A DNA stretch of 64,000 nt, from contig JAEEQP010000007.1 in assembly GCA_016285355.1 (NCBI GenBank), forward strand, positions 43,111 to 107,110. The letters are read 5' to 3'. The notes beneath the pieces are model-generated. The model was given only the letters and a program-made list of their open reading frames with translations, was not told the DNA's origin and searched no databases. The stretch's first letter is position 1. Each line of letters opens with the position of its first letter. Of the stretch, positions 6,466 to 61,112 are shown piece by piece. The stretch is from Bacteroidales bacterium. GTDB taxonomy: Bacteria; Bacteroidota; Bacteroidia; Bacteroidales; F082. Position numbers and translations under genes: made by a program.

Positions 6466-9303
6466 ATGAAAAAACTATTCACCATCTTGGCCATCATGAC
6501 ACTGACCTTGAACGCCACCGCGCAAGACATTTATTCGGTGGGCTATTATCTTGAAAACAACAAGAAAATTGCCGCCCTTTATCAAAATAGTCAAATCCTT
6601 TTTACGGTTCAAAAAACCGACCTGAATGCCATTCCAAAAACCATCGCAAATGATTCCAATAGAAATCTGTATTGGATGGTGAACATCTTCAATGGCAACT
6701 CTTTCCGTTATACTGAAGTGTGGAAAAATAACGAACTCTATGTCACGACAGAAGGCCTAACAGGCATCCGCATCATCGACATCTATTGCTCTGGCGACAC
6801 GCTTTATTACGCTGGACATTACACGAACGACGACAACAACACTGTGGCAACGGTTTGGAAAGGAACCGACTTCACAACCCATTGGCAGTTGGGCGACGGC
6901 ACACATGCCAGTTTCATATACGATGCCGAAGTGAACCCGAACACCGGGATACCTTATTTTTGCGGCTATGTCACTGAAGAAAACACCAACGCTACAGTAT
7001 GGGAAAAAAGCCAAATCAAATATTCGTATGAACCTACAGGCTATATTATAGGATCTGTCGCAGAAGAAATTTCGATAGACAACGACTCTGTTTTTACCCT
7101 TGGTTATTACAATCTTGACGCTGATGGTGATACTTATTCGTTTTCCGCAGTTTGGAAAAATGGTAAAAGAGTCGCTTCTTTTGATGCGTATGACATAGTC
7201 AATTGTCTTTGTGCCCATAATGGCGATTTTTATTACTGTTATGCATATCCTCATGGATTGGAGTATGAAATATGTAAAAACAGTTCGCAAACCTTTGTGT
7301 ATCAGTTTCCTTTTAACGGCAGTGCCGGGGCAAACAAAATCAAAGCCATTTCCAGCGATATCTATGTGATGGGGTTATTTGAAAACAAGGGATGTATTTG
7401 GAAGAATTTCGAAGTGTTTATGCAACCAGAAAACTGCGACGCGCTATACGATATAGCGGTATTTGAAACAAGCATTAACCCCAATGACTATTACGGCTTC
7501 CTCTGCCAGCCCGACAGCGCCGTCATTGAGTTGGACCCTAATAGCAGCATGGGCAGTGAATATGGTGATTTCCAAGCCCGTTTCGAATACTATCCAAACG
7601 GATTACTATATATACAAGACGCTTTTTCAATTAATTATCCTTATGATGATGAGGGTGACGACTATGGCCATACAGATTGGTTTGTTTACGATTCCGACCT
7701 TCATGTCATTGAACAACATGACTCTTATTATGACATCTACTTGGGACTCGCTTCTTACCTAAACCGCTATGTCTATGATGACGGCCTTCTCATAGCTTTT
7801 ACCATATATTATAACGACCACCATTCAATCAACGACCCGTTGATTTTGGAAGACAGCATATCATACACTTATGACGGACTTCGACGGTTACAAACAGAAG
7901 AACGGTTTGTTAGCACCACCTCCATTAAAAACTATGAATACCTTGAAAATGAAGTCATCATCACCACCGATGGCTATACCAATGGAACTTCGGGCGATTG
8001 GTTGACCCTCAGCCGAGAAATCCGCACCTTCAACGAAGACAGCCTTTTGGTCAGTTCGCAAACCGAAAAATACAACGACAGCACCATTCTGATTACCTAT
8101 GGCTATGATGCACTAGGACACAGGACCAGCATCTTGACACAAAAACGAAACAATGGCGTGTGGGAAAACCAGAAACTGGTGCAATACCACTTCAATCCAA
8201 ATGGTCGTCTCACCCTCGCAGAAATCAAACTTTGGCATGACGATGCATTTGTGGATGCCCATCGTGCAGTCTATGAATTGAACGAGCTGGGCTATCCCGC
8301 CACGGTCACCTTTGAGAAATGGGACGGCGATACGTGGGGATATGGCATTTGGCAATCCGACTTCTACCTCTACGATGAAGGCCACCTGCAGCAACAAAAC
8401 GATATGCTTTACAGTTATAGAAATTCTATCCATAAGATTGAACTATCCTATATCGCCACAAACAATCCAAGGGAACCGCTTCTGCCCGACAATTCCGAAT
8501 GGTACTACGAAATCCTCAACGACGACGGCAGCACCACCTACCAGCATCTGGAATATGCCGCCGACACCACCATAGGCACCCAACGCCCCAAGATCATCAT
8601 CCGCAGCAATACGCAATATGACCGTGACATCATCTTCACCGAAGTCACGCACGAATATGTCTATGAAGAAAACGGCAAGGTATATTGGTGGAACAAAGAC
8701 TTACAGGAGTTCACCACACTCTACGACCTCACCGCCAACGTGGGAGATGAATGGGAAATCAAGGTGGGCACCGAAAGCCTCATCATGCATGTGGATGCCG
8801 TGGAGAACTACGAATATGATGGCAAGACCTATCGGATGTTACGCGTAAGCGACGAAAACGGCCGTTTCAGTGGCAACATAGTGAGCGGCGTTGGCCACCT
8901 CACCAGTTTCTTCCCCGAACGGTTGATGAACCGAGACAAAGGCTACCGCGTGACTGGTTTGCGCTGCTATTGGGTCGAAGGAAACCTGATTTTCAAAATC
9001 AACCGCGATGACTGCGACGCCATTTATGCCCAATTGCACAACGGCATCGAGGAAGACGGCCCTTCGACGGGCTCAGGGACCTTGGTGGTCTACCCCAATC
9101 CCGCCAACGACATCCTGTTTGTACAGACGTTGCGCGCAACGTCTCTACCAAAGGAAACCTACCGCATCACCAACCTGATGGGACAAACTGTCCTTTCGGG
9201 AAACATTATCGCTGAAACCCAGCAAATCAACATCGAAAAACTGCCTGCGGGAATGTATTTCATCACCCTCGGAAACGCGACACAGAAATTTGTAGTGAAA
9301 TAA
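6466..9303 (+). CDS. T9SS-exported protein, paralog 1 (beta-propeller-like N-terminus, YD-like middle, sorting tail)
   Basis: This 945-residue protein has a signal peptide (KKLFTILAIMTLTLNATAQ). The first about 350 residues repeat blades of the form AxVWKNG/GYY, suggesting a beta-propeller. The middle has YD-like repeats (TYDGLRRLQTEERF, GYDALGHRTSI). A block of about 200 residues (WYYEILNDDG to YAQLHNGIEEDG) is shared with the next two genes. The end is a type A T9SS sorting domain (VVYPNPAND to MYFITLGNATQKFVVK), so the product should be exported across the outer membrane by the Por system. The 28-bp palindrome at 9121-9148 is translated inside that sorting domain. Substrate and function are unknown. 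Confidence 0.85.
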   Translation: MKKLFTILAIMTLTLNATAQDIYSVGYYLENNKKIAALYQNSQILFTVQKTDLNAIPKTIANDSNRNLYWMVNIFNGNSFRYTEVWKNNELYVTTEGLTGIRIIDIYCSGDTLYYAGHYTNDDNNTVATVWKGTDFTTHWQLGDGTHASFIYDAEVNPNTGIPYFCGYVTEENTNATVWEKSQIKYSYEPTGYIIGSVAEEISIDNDSVFTLGYYNLDADGDTYSFSAVWKNGKRVASFDAYDIVNCLCAHNGDFYYCYAYPHGLEYEICKNSSQTFVYQFPFNGSAGANKIKAISSDIYVMGLFENKGCIWKNFEVFMQPENCDALYDIAVFETSINPNDYYGFLCQPDSAVIELDPNSSMGSEYGDFQARFEYYPNGLLYIQDAFSINYPYDDEGDDYGHTDWFVYDSDLHVIEQHDSYYDIYLGLASYLNRYVYDDGLLIAFTIYYNDHHSINDPLILEDSISYTYDGLRRLQTEERFVSTTSIKNYEYLENEVIITTDGYTNGTSGDWLTLSREIRTFNEDSLLVSSQTEKYNDSTILITYGYDALGHRTSILTQKRNNGVWENQKLVQYHFNPNGRLTLAEIKLWHDDAFVDAHRAVYELNELGYPATVTFEKWDGDTWGYGIWQSDFYLYDEGHLQQQNDMLYSYRNSIHKIELSYIATNNPREPLLPDNSEWYYEILNDDGSTTYQHLEYAADTTIGTQRPKIIIRSNTQYDRDIIFTEVTHEYVYEENGKVYWWNKDLQEFTTLYDLTANVGDEWEIKVGTESLIMHVDAVENYEYDGKTYRMLRVSDENGRFSGNIVSGVGHLTSFFPERLMNRDKGYRVTGLRCYWVEGNLIFKINRDDCDAIYAQLHNGIEEDGPSTGSGTLVVYPNPANDILFVQTLRATSLPKETYRITNLMGQTVLSGNIIAETQQINIEKLPAGMYFITLGNATQKFVVK
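9061..9081 (+). repeat. Short dispersed repeat inside T9SS gene 1
   Basis: CCTTCGACGGGCTCAGGGAC is translated as PSTGSGT just before the sorting domain. Near-identical copies are at 11877-11897 and 13765-13786 in the paralogs, and a variant at 6385-6405 is in the untranslated leader. Confidence 0.75.
9121..9148 (+). repeat. GTAGAGACG-type palindrome inside a coding region
   Basis: GTACAGACGTTGCGCG continues to CAACGTCTCTAC, a 28-bp palindrome with one mismatch pair. It is in frame and encodes the VQTLRATSL region of the T9SS sorting domain. The same GTAGAGACG/CGTCTCTAC arms occur at 49162-49187 and 62824-62855. Confidence 0.85.
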
Positions 9304-54983: not shown

Positions 54984-55514
54984 CTATAACAACTGTGTCA
55001 GGTCATAATACATGGTCACAGTTTCTTTTTCTTGATTCGTCAATTCGCTTGGCTTTAAGAATTTAAAACCGTTTTTCTGATAAAAAGGAACGGCTGACCA
55101 TAGGGCATCTACTGTGATGAAGGCGCATCCGGTACGGTTGTTGGTGATGAAAGTATCCTTGACGAAATTGATGATAAGTCTTCCTAAATGCTCATTTTGA
55201 TGATGTATGTTGACTCCTAATCTTCCGATTTTTACAGCTGGATAATCACTTCTATGTTTACTGTGTGGGAATTCCTTCTTGATTTTACGCCATGTAGCTT
55301 TATCGCTTTCGTTGATGGAGATTCTATCGTTTGAAACGGAGAAAAAAGCAAGTAGTTCGGTTTCATCTTCCAATAAATAAGTCACTGCAAGCAAATGGCT
55401 GGCGTATTGTTTTGCATCATTTAGGAGAAAATCATTCAAATCGACGTTGCCACAATCGAAGGGTTTTAAAACATAATCTTGTGTCAACCTGACAATTCTG
55501 CGGTTGTTTTGCAT
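54984..55514 (-). CDS. GNAT-family acetyltransferase, possible toxin of a GNAT pair
   Basis: Starting at ATG 55514, 176 residues. The GNAT motif A region is VKIGRLGVNIHHQNEHLGRLIINFVKD, and the C-terminal motif is VPFYQKNGFKFL. The N-terminal half (VDLNDFLLNDAKQYASHLLAVTYLL) is typical of the toxin-type GNATs (TacT/AtaT-like) that acetylate aminoacyl-tRNA. A 52-residue gene ends 10 bases upstream of its start, the layout of a GNAT toxin-antitoxin pair. The toxin role is inference from family and layout. Confidence 0.8.
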   Translation of the reverse strand: MQNNRRIVRLTQDYVLKPFDCGNVDLNDFLLNDAKQYASHLLAVTYLLEDETELLAFFSVSNDRISINESDKATWRKIKKEFPHSKHRSDYPAVKIGRLGVNIHHQNEHLGRLIINFVKDTFITNNRTGCAFITVDALWSAVPFYQKNGFKFLKPSELTNQEKETVTMYYDLTQLL

Positions 55515-55524
55515 GGTGTATCCG

Positions 55525-55683
55525 TTAAAATGCAAAAGTCAACAATGAACGGATGAAGTCGGCATCCGCCTTTATACGCTTTTTCTCTTCTTCCGATGCT
55601 TTTTCTCCTTTTTCCATTTCAGCAAAAAAGGCATAAGCATCTTCTCCCTCAAGCACAGGTGTGGCTTCTATTGGTTTTGCCAT
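55525..55683 (-). CDS. Small partner protein of the GNAT gene (candidate antitoxin)
   Basis: This 52-residue gene starts at ATG 55683 and stops at 55525. It begins MAKPIEATPVLEGEDAYAFF, followed by an acidic/lysine-rich helix (EMEKGEKASEEEKKRIKADA), and ends DFIRSLLTFAF. A minus-strand -7 box lies at 55712-55719. The size, charge and tight coupling (10-base gap) to the GNAT gene fit an antitoxin or chaperone-like partner known beside such GNATs in Bacteroidetes. Confidence 0.7.
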   Translation of the reverse strand: MAKPIEATPVLEGEDAYAFFAEMEKGEKASEEEKKRIKADADFIRSLLTFAF

Positions 55684-57385: not shown

Positions 57386-58825
57386 TCAATATAGACAATT
57401 TTTCGGTGTACGCGGGAACGGAATGACATCACGAATATTCGTCATGCCGGTGATGAAAAGCAACAGACGCTCGAAGCCAAGGCCATAGCCTGAGTGCGGC
57501 ACCGAGCCGAATCGGCGGCTATCCAAATACCAGTCCATTGAAGCCTCGGGGATACCGACTTCGTGCATGCGGTCGAGCAGCTTGTTGATGTCGGTCTCAC
57601 GCTCGGAACCGCCAATAATCTCACCGATGCCCGGGAAGAGCACATCCATAGCGCGGACGGTCTTGCCGTCTTCGTTCTGCTTCATGTAGAAGGCTTTGAT
57701 TTCCTTCGGGTAGTCGGTCAGGATGACAGGCTTCTTAAAGTGCTTCTCGACGAGGTAACGCTCGTGCTCCGATTGCAAATCAACGCCCCAACCGTTCACA
57801 GGATACTGGAACTTGCCCTTCTTGTTGTAGTTGGAGTTGCGCAGGATGTCAATGGCCTCGGTGTAGGTCAGGCGGACAAACTCATGTTCCAACACAAAGT
57901 GCAGCTTGCTAATGAGCTCCATCGACTTCTCTTCTTCCTTCTTGCCCTTTTCTTCTTCCTGCAAACGCTTGCTGAGGAATTGGAGGTCGTCCATGTTGTT
58001 GTCCAAAGCGTACTGAATCAAGTACTTCAGCATCTCTTCGGCCAAGTCCATGTTGTCGTTAATGTCGTAGAAAGCCATCTCAGGCTCAATCATCCAGAAC
58101 TCGGCCAAGTGGCGCGTAGTGTTGGAGTTTTCGGCACGGAAGGTGGGACCGAAGGTATAAATCTTGCCCAAGGCCGTGGCGGCCAACTCACCTTCCAACT
58201 GACCTGAAACGGTGAGGTTGGTCGATTTGCCGAAGAAGTCCTGCTTGTAGTCGATGTTGCCTTGCTCGTCACGAGGGATGTTATTGAGGTCAAGGGTGGT
58301 CACTTGGAACATCTCGCCCGCACCTTCAGCATCTGAGGCGGTGATGAGCGGGGTGTGGACATTGTAGAAACCTCTCTCAGTAAAGAACTTGTGGATGGCG
58401 AATACCATGGCGTGGCGCAGGCGCATCACGGCACCGAATGTGTTAGTGCGGAAACGCAGGTGGGCGATGTCGCGCAGGAACTCCAAGGAGTGTTTCTTGG
58501 GTTGCAGCGGGTATTCATCGGGGTTGGCGGGACCGAACAGTCCAATCTCCTTCACGGAGAGCTCCACGGCCTGACCGCTACCCATAGAAGCGACCAAAAC
58601 ACCCTTGGCCCAAAGGGATGCACCAGCGTGCATCAAGGCCAAATTCTCTTCGGGGATGACATTCAGGTCAATGACCAATTGTAGGTTGTTGATGGTGGAG
58701 CCGTCGTTAAGGGCGATGAAGGCCACGTTTTTGCTGCCGCGCTTGTTGCGCACCCAGCCCATTACAGTAATCTCATTGTCAGAGGCTTGCATCTGCAAGG
58801 CTTGCTTGATTTCTACTCTTTTCAC
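57386..58825 (-). CDS. asnS: Asparaginyl-tRNA synthetase
   Basis: This class II synthetase charges tRNA-Asn. The best start is GTG 58825 ([10 protein letters not shown]...), which gives the usual N-terminal OB-fold ([19 protein letters not shown]) and 479 residues; the upstream in-frame extension to 58915 has no family resemblance. Motif 2 is [22 protein letters not shown], motif 3 [15 protein letters not shown]. An extra Lys/Glu-rich stretch ([17 protein letters not shown]) sits in the middle. Convergence is absent: rpoN follows in the same direction. Confidence 0.95.
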
Positions 58826-58910
58826 TTTATGATGATTTTTATTTGTTGCTTGATTTGTAATCAAACTGCAAAGTAACGAAAAAAAATGCAATGGTTCGTA
58901 AAAAATGCTG

Positions 58911-58918
58911 TACATTTG
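58911..58918 (+). promoter_or_regulatory. -7 element of the Y1 transposase gene
   Basis: TACATTTG at 58911-58918, only 9 bases before the ATG at 58927, so the transcript would be essentially leaderless. A similar AAAAATGCTACATTTGCCAT stretch precedes the lipoprotein gene at 63434. Confidence 0.5.
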
Positions 58919-58926
58919 CCATCGTT

Positions 58927-59382
58927 ATGGCGAACACCTACACACAATTGAACACGCACATTGTTTTTCATACGAAAAGCACAGGTATTATCATGCGTGA
59001 CGAGGATTTAGAGCGCGTGTTTCAATATATTGGTGGCATTATCCGTGAAGAAGGCGCGATTCCATTTGCTGTGGGCGGTGTGGCTGACCATATTCATATT
59101 TTGACGACGTTGCCAAAAAACATGAGCCTTGCGGATTTTATGCGTGTTATCAAAGCGAATAGCAGCAAATGGTTGAGGCGATTGGATTCATATTATGAAT
59201 CATTTAGATGGCAGGATGGTTATGGTGCTTTCAGTGTCAGTCCGTCGGTGATGAAACGGACGACACATTACATCCTTACACAGGCGGAACATCATAAAAC
59301 GAAAACATATCATGATGAATATTGTGAGATTTTGGATGCCTATGGAATTGAATATGATGAACGGTATGTGTTTGGTGATTAA
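58927..59382 (+). CDS. Y1 (HUH) transposase, REP-associated / IS200-like
   Basis: This 151-residue enzyme of the Y1_Tnp superfamily makes single-strand cuts at hairpins. The HUH motif HIH is at 55-57 (VADHIHILTTLP), and the catalytic tyrosine is probably Tyr115 (THYILTQAEHHKT). Nearly all of the family's conserved core (WQDGYGAFSVS) is present, so it looks intact. No accessory TnpB and no clear IS ends are visible, which fits a RAYT, a domesticated relative that spreads REP-type palindromes. A palindrome (CCCATATGGG) and a 59-bp repeat follow within 115 bases. Confidence 0.85.
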   Translation: MANTYTQLNTHIVFHTKSTGIIMRDEDLERVFQYIGGIIREEGAIPFAVGGVADHIHILTTLPKNMSLADFMRVIKANSSKWLRRLDSYYESFRWQDGYGAFSVSPSVMKRTTHYILTQAEHHKTKTYHDEYCEILDAYGIEYDERYVFGD

Positions 59383-59395
59383 TGTTATTCTGTCG

Positions 59396-59405
59396 CCCAT
59401 ATGGG
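59396..59405 (+). repeat. Short palindrome after the Y1 transposase gene
   Basis: CCCATATGGG lies 14 bases after the transposase stop, in the position expected for a REP-type hairpin recognised by such enzymes. Confidence 0.4.
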
Positions 59406-59435
59406 GCTCTATTGGAATTATTTCGTTGTTTGTCG

Positions 59436-59494
59436 GCAGGAGTTCCATTCCATTTCACAACCTGCCTAATATCTGTCGTCACTATGTGACTTTG
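59436..59494 (-). repeat. 59-bp repeat beside the Y1 transposase, copy 1
   Basis: The minus-strand reading begins CAAAGTCACATAGTGACGAC and ends GGAACTCCTGC. Copy 2 at 60003-60061 is in opposite orientation; about four in five bases agree, with no gaps. It contains GTCAC/GTGAC hairpin arms. Confidence 0.8.
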
Positions 59495-59513
59495 AGGGGT
59501 AAATAGATTGAAA

Positions 59514-61112
59514 ATGAACATAATACTAAAACAATGGACGATTGAGGACAAAGTTGAATTAATAGCTTTGTGCAATGCTGTTGACAGAACCTATTTGTCG
59601 GATAGATTACCATATCCTTATTCGGATGCTGATGCGGATTGGTGGATGGAAATGGTTGAATTGAATGAAGGTAAAACGGGAATTTTCAGGGCCATTGTTG
59701 TGGATGGAAGAATTGTTGGGAGCATTTCTGTGGAATGTGATGGGAATAGTCGTGGCAGAGGTGAAATTGGTTATATGTTGAGCACAGACTATTGGTCGAG
59801 AGGCATTGCTACAAAGGCCGTTTCGCAAATTTGCAAAATTGCATTTGAAAAATTGTCCGTTGATTGTATTGGCGCAAAAGTATACGAATCCAATATGGCT
59901 TCCGTGCGTGTTTTAGAGAAAAATGGCTTTGTGTACAATAGGATTTTGGATGAACCTAAATTGAAAAAAGGTGAGCATGATAATTTGCTTTTGTTTGATT
60001 TGCAAAGTCACGGAGTGACGACAGATACTAAGCAGGTGGTGAAGCGCAGCGGAACCCCTGCGTTCCCCCACAGCGATACCCCCATCATCCTCGCTGGCCC
60101 CTGCAGCATAGAAACCGAAGAACAGATAATAGCTACGGCCCAAGCTCTATCGAAAATCCCCGAAGTGAAAATGCTCCGAGGCGGCATCTGGAAACCCCGC
60201 ACCCGCCCCGATGCCTTCGAAGGCAGGGGAGAGCAAGGCCTCGTCTGGCTCCGCGAAGCGAAACAAGAGACAGGATTGCCCACCGCTACGGAAGTAGCCA
60301 CCCCTGAGCATGTCGAGTTAGCCTTAAAATACGATGTCGATGCGCTATGGATAGGTGCCCGCACAGTCGTCAATCCCTTCTCGGTACAGCAGCTGGCCGA
60401 TGCCTTGCAGGGTGTTGATATCCCCGTGTTCATCAAAAATCCTGTCTCACCTGATTTGAAGTTATGGATTGGCGCTTTCGAGCGTTTCCAAAAGGCGGGA
60501 TTGACTCAGTTGGCGGCTATTCATCGTGGCTTTGCCTATTATAAGGAGTCACCATATCGCAATTTCCCCATGTGGGAGATCCCAATAGAACTCACGCAAA
60601 GGTTGAATGTGCCTCTCATCACCGACGTGAGCCATATTTGCGGCAACCGCGAACTATTGCAAGCCACAGCACAAAAGGCTCTCGACCTCGCCACCGATGG
60701 ATTAATGATAGAATGCCACATCAACCCTGACGAGGCTTTGACGGATGCCAAGCAACAAATCACGCCAGAAGAATTGAAAACGCTTTTGTCCAACTTAACT
60801 TTCCGCTCCAAGCAGTCAGGCAATGTGGAGCGCGACTTGGCGGGACTCCGTGGAGAAATTGACGACATCGACAGCGAGCTGCTGCAACTGTTAGCCCGAC
60901 GTATGGAGGTCAGTGCGCAGATTGGGGAATACAAGAAACACAACAATGTCACTGTGGTGCAGATGGACCGCTGGAAGAAAATCCTTGCCGACCATGTGTC
61001 TACTGGTGCTGATTTAGGTCTGTCGCCTGAATTAATTACAGAAGTCTTCGAGGCCATCCATCAGGCATCCATTGAGCGACAGAGCCGCATCATGGAAGAC
61101 GGAAACGAATAA
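59514..61112 (+). CDS. Fusion: GNAT acetyltransferase + DAHP synthase + chorismate mutase
   Basis: ATG 59514 gives 532 residues. Residues 1 to about 163 are a GNAT (GEIGYMLSTDYWSRGIATKAV; ASVRVLEKNGF). A linker (164-184) is encoded by a repeat that occurs in inverted copy at 59436-59494. From about 188 (PIILAGPCSIETEEQI) to about 430 is a type I DAHP synthase of the Bacteroidetes fused form (RGGIWKPRTRPDAFEG; FIKNPVSPDLKLW; AAIHRGFAYY). The last about 90 residues are AroQ-type chorismate mutase (LRGEIDDIDSELLQLLARRM). The latter two catalyse the first shikimate step and chorismate to prephenate. The GNAT part has no known link to this pathway. Confidence 0.9.
   Translation: MNIILKQWTIEDKVELIALCNAVDRTYLSDRLPYPYSDADADWWMEMVELNEGKTGIFRAIVVDGRIVGSISVECDGNSRGRGEIGYMLSTDYWSRGIATKAVSQICKIAFEKLSVDCIGAKVYESNMASVRVLEKNGFVYNRILDEPKLKKGEHDNLLLFDLQSHGVTTDTKQVVKRSGTPAFPHSDTPIILAGPCSIETEEQIIATAQALSKIPEVKMLRGGIWKPRTRPDAFEGRGEQGLVWLREAKQETGLPTATEVATPEHVELALKYDVDALWIGARTVVNPFSVQQLADALQGVDIPVFIKNPVSPDLKLWIGAFERFQKAGLTQLAAIHRGFAYYKESPYRNFPMWEIPIELTQRLNVPLITDVSHICGNRELLQATAQKALDLATDGLMIECHINPDEALTDAKQQITPEELKTLLSNLTFRSKQSGNVERDLAGLRGEIDDIDSELLQLLARRMEVSAQIGEYKKHNNVTVVQMDRWKKILADHVSTGADLGLSPELITEVFEAIHQASIERQSRIMEDGNE
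60003..60061 (+). repeat. 59-bp repeat, copy 2, inside the GNAT-aroG fusion
   Basis: It begins CAAAGTCACGGAGTGACGAC and ends GGAACCCCTGC, continuing into a GGAAC/GTTCC hairpin. It is read in frame as QSHGVTTDTKQVVKRSGTPA and forms the junction between the GNAT and the DAHP synthase. Confidence 0.85.

Follow-up and report, generated by a model that had tools for sequence, protein, structure and literature searches.

Our analysis suggests that, in gut Bacteroidales, a Y1 transposase and its REPs have made their home on the start of aro, the gene for DAHP synthase and chorismate mutase, and that at this locus the front end of the enzyme has been supplied, lost and exchanged. From the comparison of sequences, we give this reading a probability of about 70%. 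The window (the whole 64-kb stretch of Bacteroidales DNA that was analysed) holds one product of the locus. A single stop-free frame, taken from the ORF list and its translation, begins at 59508 (TTG; ATG at 59514), ends with the stop codon at 61110-61112 and encodes 534 aa. Pfam recognises three domains in the product: a complete GNAT domain (Acetyltransf_3, PF13302, residues 5-142, profile positions 2-138 of 138), DAHP_synth_1 (residues 190-428) and CM_2 (residues 447-525). The in-frame fusion of GNAT, DAHP synthase and chorismate mutase described in an earlier note on this DNA is thus confirmed by the open frame at 59508-61112 and its three domains.

Results

The neighbour of the fused gene is asnS (asparaginyl-tRNA synthetase; 57386-58828, minus strand), which is conserved and divergent, with an unsettled start codon and an ORF that extends to 58915. 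On the plus strand, a box of the TAnnTTTG type (58911-58918), the Bacteroidetes -7 consensus, stands 8 nt ahead of the ATG of the Y1 gene (58927-59382), in a leader homologous to the native aro leader. An ORF in another frame (59312-59506, plus strand) lies over the 3' end of Y1, reads through an inverted copy of the REP (59435-59494, minus strand, located by blastn and profile search) and stops 7 nt before the GNAT ATG. There follow, all on the plus strand, the GNAT domain including its last strand (59508-60002, from Pfam and the structure model), a REP read in frame as a linker (60003-60061), the rest of the linker to the aro core, which has no ATG (60062-60077), the DAHP synthase domain (60075-60791) and the type II chorismate mutase domain (60846-61082). 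Another GNAT gene of the window, belonging to Acetyltransf_10, is found downstream of rpoN at 54984-55535 on the minus strand.

In the structure model of the fusion (mean pLDDT 68.7, pTM 0.47), the GNAT ends with a strand formed by residues 160-166, the REP-encoded linker appears as a stretch of low predicted confidence (residues 168-185), and the DAHP synthase begins at residue 193. DAHP synthase precedes chorismate mutase, as in DAH7PS-CM, and the NCBIfam model PRK12595 gives the protein 186.7 bits, below the cut-off of 279. When solved structures were searched by sequence, the matches were DAHP synthases, the best being 3nvt, then 1nsl for the GNAT (E 1e-6) and weak transposase matches for Y1.

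As the earlier note had seen, the junction at 60003-60061 is a copy of a repeat found inverted at 59436-59494 (81.4% over 59 bases, E 2.7e-11), and the repeat adjoins a Y1 transposase (Y1_Tnp ORF, 58927-59382). A search of the 64-kb window gave no third copy (blastn, E<=10). The junction repeat is present in at least nine of 15 related genomes (blastn, E<=0.001), a lower bound, given that G001, G002 and G004 yielded no match though they bear the fused locus. An alignment of 36 copies, 35 of them distinct, taken from the window and its relatives spans 63 columns and shows two hairpins, with pairing in 99.0% of cells against 90.4% when shuffled. Compensatory changes on both sides are seen in six of the 14 hairpin pairs, a number reached in 17 of 500 shuffles, and the covariation score is 0.296 against 0.144 for shuffled copies. 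The conserved two-hairpin fold and the occurrence in related genomes indicate that the presence of the repeat at the junction is more than chance. Iterated profile searching of 121 sequences yielded 117 matches, many of them in inverted pairs, a count in which two regions are entered twice (L015/L096 and L029/L081). A palindromic hairpin kept by compensation, together with dispersed copies that are often paired and inverted, characterises the repeat as a REP/REPIN; the canonical 5' GT[AG]G foot of REPs is absent, as judged by eye in the alignment.

The first hairpin has two main versions, GTCAC-GGA-GTGAC and GTCCC-GTA-GGGAC, whose in-frame readings, SHGVT and SPVG, are the alternating heads of the linkers, so that the linker peptide follows the DNA hairpin. 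Copies elsewhere in the genomes lie, by inspection, mostly over short ORFs or over none, several as inverted pairs, and they lend no support to a view of the repeat as an in-frame protein-coding element of general occurrence. Two long-frame candidates overlapping a REP copy were observed, one in L095 (7584-9623), where a 679-aa frame carries the REP peptide at residues 20-38 and may be a second N-terminal REP fusion, and the other in L094 (1025-2098).

The earlier note took the three-domain protein to be newly made, which proved mistaken, since the fusion is neither new nor unique. It is shown by 63 of 120 protein clusters (the best 120 of 8000 scored proteins), two of which, P0065 and P0072, are without most of the GNAT. 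In a survey of 173 genomes of the family, 163 had an aro match, and 12 of these 163 have a frame of more than 500 aa among the matches listed. Fused relatives across proteins and genomes rule out a recent fusion confined to the window.

The REP head motif, searched with a pattern written after the linkers were seen, occurs in the linker of all 63 fused clusters, and its position varies (bins set by pattern, with P0059 reassigned by eye to tail-then-REP). The last GNAT strand is kept before the REP in 29 clusters, as in the window, and in 30 the REP comes soon after EKNGF. The earlier note had tied its reading to a repeat at the joint in fused relatives as well; this applies to 59 of the 63 clusters, in which a REP lies between GNAT and the aro core, and fails for four (P0040, P0054, P0055 and P0057), in which the REP precedes the last GNAT strand and that strand continues REP-free into aro. 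Two or three REP heads are present in seven clusters, and in P0048 a GNAT of the first kind, with the strand before the REP, is followed by a REP tail of the second kind. The varied positions imply repeated entry of the REP into the fused gene, or repeated shifts inside it, with the frame kept on every occasion.

Given the four clusters in which the REP is off the joint, something other than the REP may have brought about the joining. An ordinary deletion could have joined GNAT and aro, with REPs invading a tolerant linker later as passengers and with exchange by plain homologous recombination. The four clusters, the seven with several REP heads, and the discussion of REPs in flexible protein parts in PMC3733652 speak for this account. 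We nevertheless find it unlikely, since it has to accommodate both the 59 clusters with a REP between GNAT and aro core and the REP peptides that precede aro in loci free of GNAT.

Such loci were found in a series of 81, made up of the window together with the 80 best of 179 candidate loci in rumen and gut Bacteroidales. All the genomes compared are MAGs, and single cases could therefore be chimeric assemblies. The gene order rpoN-asnS facing aro is common to the 80 related loci, where the contig reaches. In all 26 outgroup loci and in several closer ones, the N-terminus of aro is short, and no Y1, REP or GNAT accompanies the gene at the thresholds used. Twelve of the 81 loci are fused to GNAT (the window and L001-L011), ten have the arrangement Y1-REP-aro, i.e. 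an aro extended by REPs without GNAT, and four (L013, L018, L019 and L048) are without Y1 and have an aro that starts with the first residues of Y1, MANTY or MANIY; L023, which lies at a contig end, was left out of this count. An additional REP stands left of Y1 in L006, L015 and L029, L031 has a REP without Y1, and L032 retains two Y1 pieces and the end of the REP peptide. Within the same group, aro has a separate ATG close to the core, after the REP or a gap, in L014, L029 and L031. In L021 the inverted REP alone reached the profile threshold, and the forward REP peptide was seen by eye.

In the ten Y1-REP-aro loci, the 618 codons of the aro frame from Y1 to aro include no stop, while the other two frames hold 27 and 33; these loci are related and are therefore not ten independent cases. 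The open frame begins inside the end of Y1 and crosses the REPs, and the actual start codon may be situated towards the end of the REP, a misannotation of the kind against which PMC3733652 cautions. The 80 nt before Y1 at aro align to native aro leaders with a mean score of 28.5 (10x9 comparisons, range 11.5-48.5). The mean falls to 5.2 when they are aligned to the leaders of 17 other Y1 genes, and it is 7.7 for shuffled sequences (sd 2.4, highest 19.5). The Y1 leader of the window scores 22.5-38.0 against the native aro leaders. The spacing from asnS to Y1 is 100-105 in several loci, close to the native spacing of 103-108 from asnS to aro in others. As the leader before Y1 is homologous to the native aro leader, the Y1/REP unit lies downstream of the aro promoter and ahead of the aro start. 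A putative two-gene RelE/ParE-like toxin-antitoxin cassette, recognised by eye, is situated between asnS and aro in L011 (7510-7999), L022 (7474-7963) and L027 (7450-7978), two of them without GNAT, so that the gap accepts other genes too.

It had been claimed in the earlier note that the repeat removed the GNAT stop and the aro start. In the window, neither a GNAT stop nor an aro ATG is left between the domains, the REP is exactly at the junction, and in the window's class the GNAT is complete to its last strand. This much would suit a single REP insertion between an adjacent GNAT and aro that made the fusion in this lineage, an event that we consider very unlikely. Separate GNAT and aro genes were sought in the 80 related loci, some of them truncated by a contig end (tblastn, E<=1e-5), and no unfused GNAT was detected upstream of aro. 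Moreover, GNAT homologues (E<=1e-12) occur in 11 of 42 genomes searched, with one match each, always fused at this locus and without a stop, and none of the 42 has an unfused or off-locus GNAT at that threshold; these 11 genomes and L142, where the GNAT was seen too, are the 12 of the family survey. The REP-extended aro without GNAT also argues against such an insertion, as does the uncoupling of GNAT likeness from aro likeness.

Stand-alone relatives of the GNAT are mostly 54-64% identical to it (best 120 of 688). In a quick tree built on few columns, the fused GNATs cluster together, apart from 38 stand-alone GNATs drawn from these 120, with 99% SH-aLRT. On the aro+asnS tree, a concatenation that mixes genes that may recombine and that has many weak inner forks, the fused state requires ten changes, and a single clade is rejected with p-AU 1.8e-45 in a test made after the tree was seen. 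Exchange would explain why the GNATs form one group yet the fused trait requires ten changes. The GNAT looks like one later arrival at the locus that has since moved, and the front end that bears it has probably moved between species.

Pairwise identities also suggest exchange. From 176 pairs compared with a 3-point threshold, six were listed. L002 and L004 are 100% identical in the DNA of the GNAT, with 79.4% in aro and 90.3% in asnS, and GNAT and aro identities are 98.3 and 85.6 for L005/L009 and 96.2 and 79.2 for L008/L010. The left flank of the last two pairs is beyond comparison, because L009 and L010 end too early, and both flanks are comparable solely for L002 against L004 and L007. L002 and L007 share a block at 7858-8500 that reaches from the Y1 end to the right REP; its 643 bases contain 4 mismatches, whereas the preceding 445 bases (7413-7857) hold 46. 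In L002/L004, L005/L009 and L008/L010, likeness has its right border within the REP or at the IIAGPCS codons that immediately follow. L007/L028, also among the six, has 94.1 in asnS, 98.0 in Y1 and 77.5 in aro. One group of three loci supports exchange well, and three pairs support its right border. Across 72 fused proteins, a GNAT identity of >=98% goes together with an aro identity of <=92% in 59 of 2485 pairs, and aro >=95% with GNAT <=85% in 13; GNAT and aro identities show hardly any correlation (0.19). The 2485 pairs (of 2556) are non-independent, many rows are near-copies, and some may be one genome twice.

The Y1 protein has the HUH motif as DHIH and the motif Y---Q--HH as YILTQAEHH, in place of the Y---NP of RAYT/TnpAREP (class 2), which is absent. 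It reaches Pfam Y1_Tnp and scores 26.8 bits with NCBIfam REP_Tyr_transpos (cut-off 80) and 45.8 bits with transpos_IS200 (cut-off 55). A canonical RAYT is rejected by the motif and by the REP_Tyr_transpos cut-off. A full Y1 of the aro-locus type (77-81% identity) is present as a single copy in ten of 26 genomes and as two copies in none, with a contig-end fragment in G017 (57 residues, 89%) leaving a second copy possible there. The remaining full-length Y1 matches in the 26 genomes have at most 61% identity and lie at other loci. Copy number and the transpos_IS200 cut-off reject an active IS200 or a multi-copy IS200/IS605 element. In the profile search of the loci, REPs flank the Y1 gene at aro, and a REP match (E<=0.01, some of them weak) lies near the Y1 gene at 13 of 20 other Y1 loci (L162-L174), the same search giving none near Y1 in L175-L181. 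In L163, L166, L171, L172 and L174, the first codons after Y1 suggest by eye a possible RluA-type pseudouridine synthase with its own ATG. A nearly identical internal deletion of Y1, of about codons 34-115, is found in two lineages (L004, 7661-7862; L032, 7783-7984) and may reflect shared ancestry, exchange or deletion that recurred.

In ten of 13 fused loci (L005, L009 and L010 left out), pN/pS is 0.25 for the GNAT, 0.65 for the linker and 0.14 for aro. The GNAT and aro domains thus look under purifying selection, and the GNAT, given this selection, probably still folds and acts. A GTG or TTG is in frame between GNAT and aro in all 13 fused DNA loci, the last of them in the window 15 codons ahead of the aro core, which leaves room for an internal start of aro. 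If aro were translated alone from such a codon, the three-domain protein would be absent from the cell. We judge this quite unlikely: an ATG is present in the linker of one fused DNA locus and lacking in the other 12 of 13, M occurs in 12 of 63 linkers, so that no ATG is conserved, and the GNAT, itself apparently under purifying selection, shares the reading frame of aro in each of 11 genomes. In four of seven loci tested (the window, L002, L004 and L007), the frame over the Y1 end has its stop 2-7 bases ahead of the GNAT ATG; in L006 it passes that ATG, and in L005 and L010 it ends earlier. From this pattern coupled translation can at most be inferred, and a translational relay from the Y1-overlapping ORF to the GNAT is possible.

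Discussion

The pattern of aro forms was seen by comparison, and the order and causes proposed here are deduced from it. In one gut Bacteroidales lineage, a Y1 (HUH) transposase with its own REPs has its home behind the aro promoter and ahead of the aro start, and the transposase would have taken over the aro leader. In most such loci, aro appears to have lost its own start, and forms are seen in which an upstream frame runs open into aro. The routes into the gene are REP pairs, the first codons of a deleted transposase, or a GNAT that appears to have been captured once beside REPs, which in the window would yield the predicted three-domain protein with a flexible, REP-encoded linker. The REP-GNAT-REP block has then probably spread between species at this single locus, with repeated loss. 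Spread was most likely by homologous recombination, with arms that could have been provided by the end of Y1, by the REPs and by the conserved codons for IIAGPCS.

A stronger proposal is that REP-GNAT-REP is a mobile domain cassette, moved by Y1 or by REP-to-REP recombination onto the start of a central enzyme. We regard it as tentative and somewhat unlikely; if it were true, species would swap N-terminal domains of one essential protein, as integrons swap genes. Under the reading that we prefer, in which the transposase and its REPs are at home on the aro start, a settled transposase and its repeats may occupy the start of an essential gene and pass a new front end between species. The rise of new domain fusions in bacteria usually has to be reconstructed at a great distance in time. 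At this locus, probable intermediates still exist together: the native gene, the gene behind a transposase, the repeat-extended gene, the gene fused to a captured domain and the gene with the first residues of the transposase. One literature search with four terms found no report of a fusion of DAHP synthase and acetyltransferase domains, and no report was found in the literature search of a REP together with a gene fusion, a transposase and a start codon.

The DAH7PS-CM of Porphyromonas and Prevotella likewise has a DAHP synthase followed by a C-terminal chorismate mutase (PMC12202928), and the window protein differs from it by an added N-terminal GNAT and a REP linker. Among transposases, Y---Q--HH, low copy number and occurrence in Bacteroidetes or Cyanobacteria mark TnpAY1 subclass 1.2 (PMC6006769), to which we liken the window Y1 by the motif, the low copy number and the Bacteroidetes host. 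The passages of PMC6006769 on this subclass describe its members as generally without typical terminal IS200 structures and name no REPs; here, the Y1 gene at aro is flanked by REPs, and 13 of 20 other Y1 loci have a REP match nearby, which links repeats to the subclass. A REPtron is a tnpAREP/RAYT gene flanked by REPs and REPINs (PMC6006769). The locus resembles it in having a low-copy HUH-Y1 gene flanked by palindromic repeats that are dispersed and occur in inverted pairs, but its Y1 has Y---Q--HH where the REPtron has Y---NP (PMC6006769), and it sits at a housekeeping start codon, with repeats that are part of the protein encoded there. In Rickettsia palindromic elements and intragenic REPs, repeats decorate existing genes (PMC10969869, PMC3733652). 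The aro REPs share with the Rickettsia elements a palindromic repeat read in frame inside a protein, whereas copies elsewhere mostly overlap no long ORF, by inspection, and the in-frame copies mark a fusion joint at the home of a transposase.
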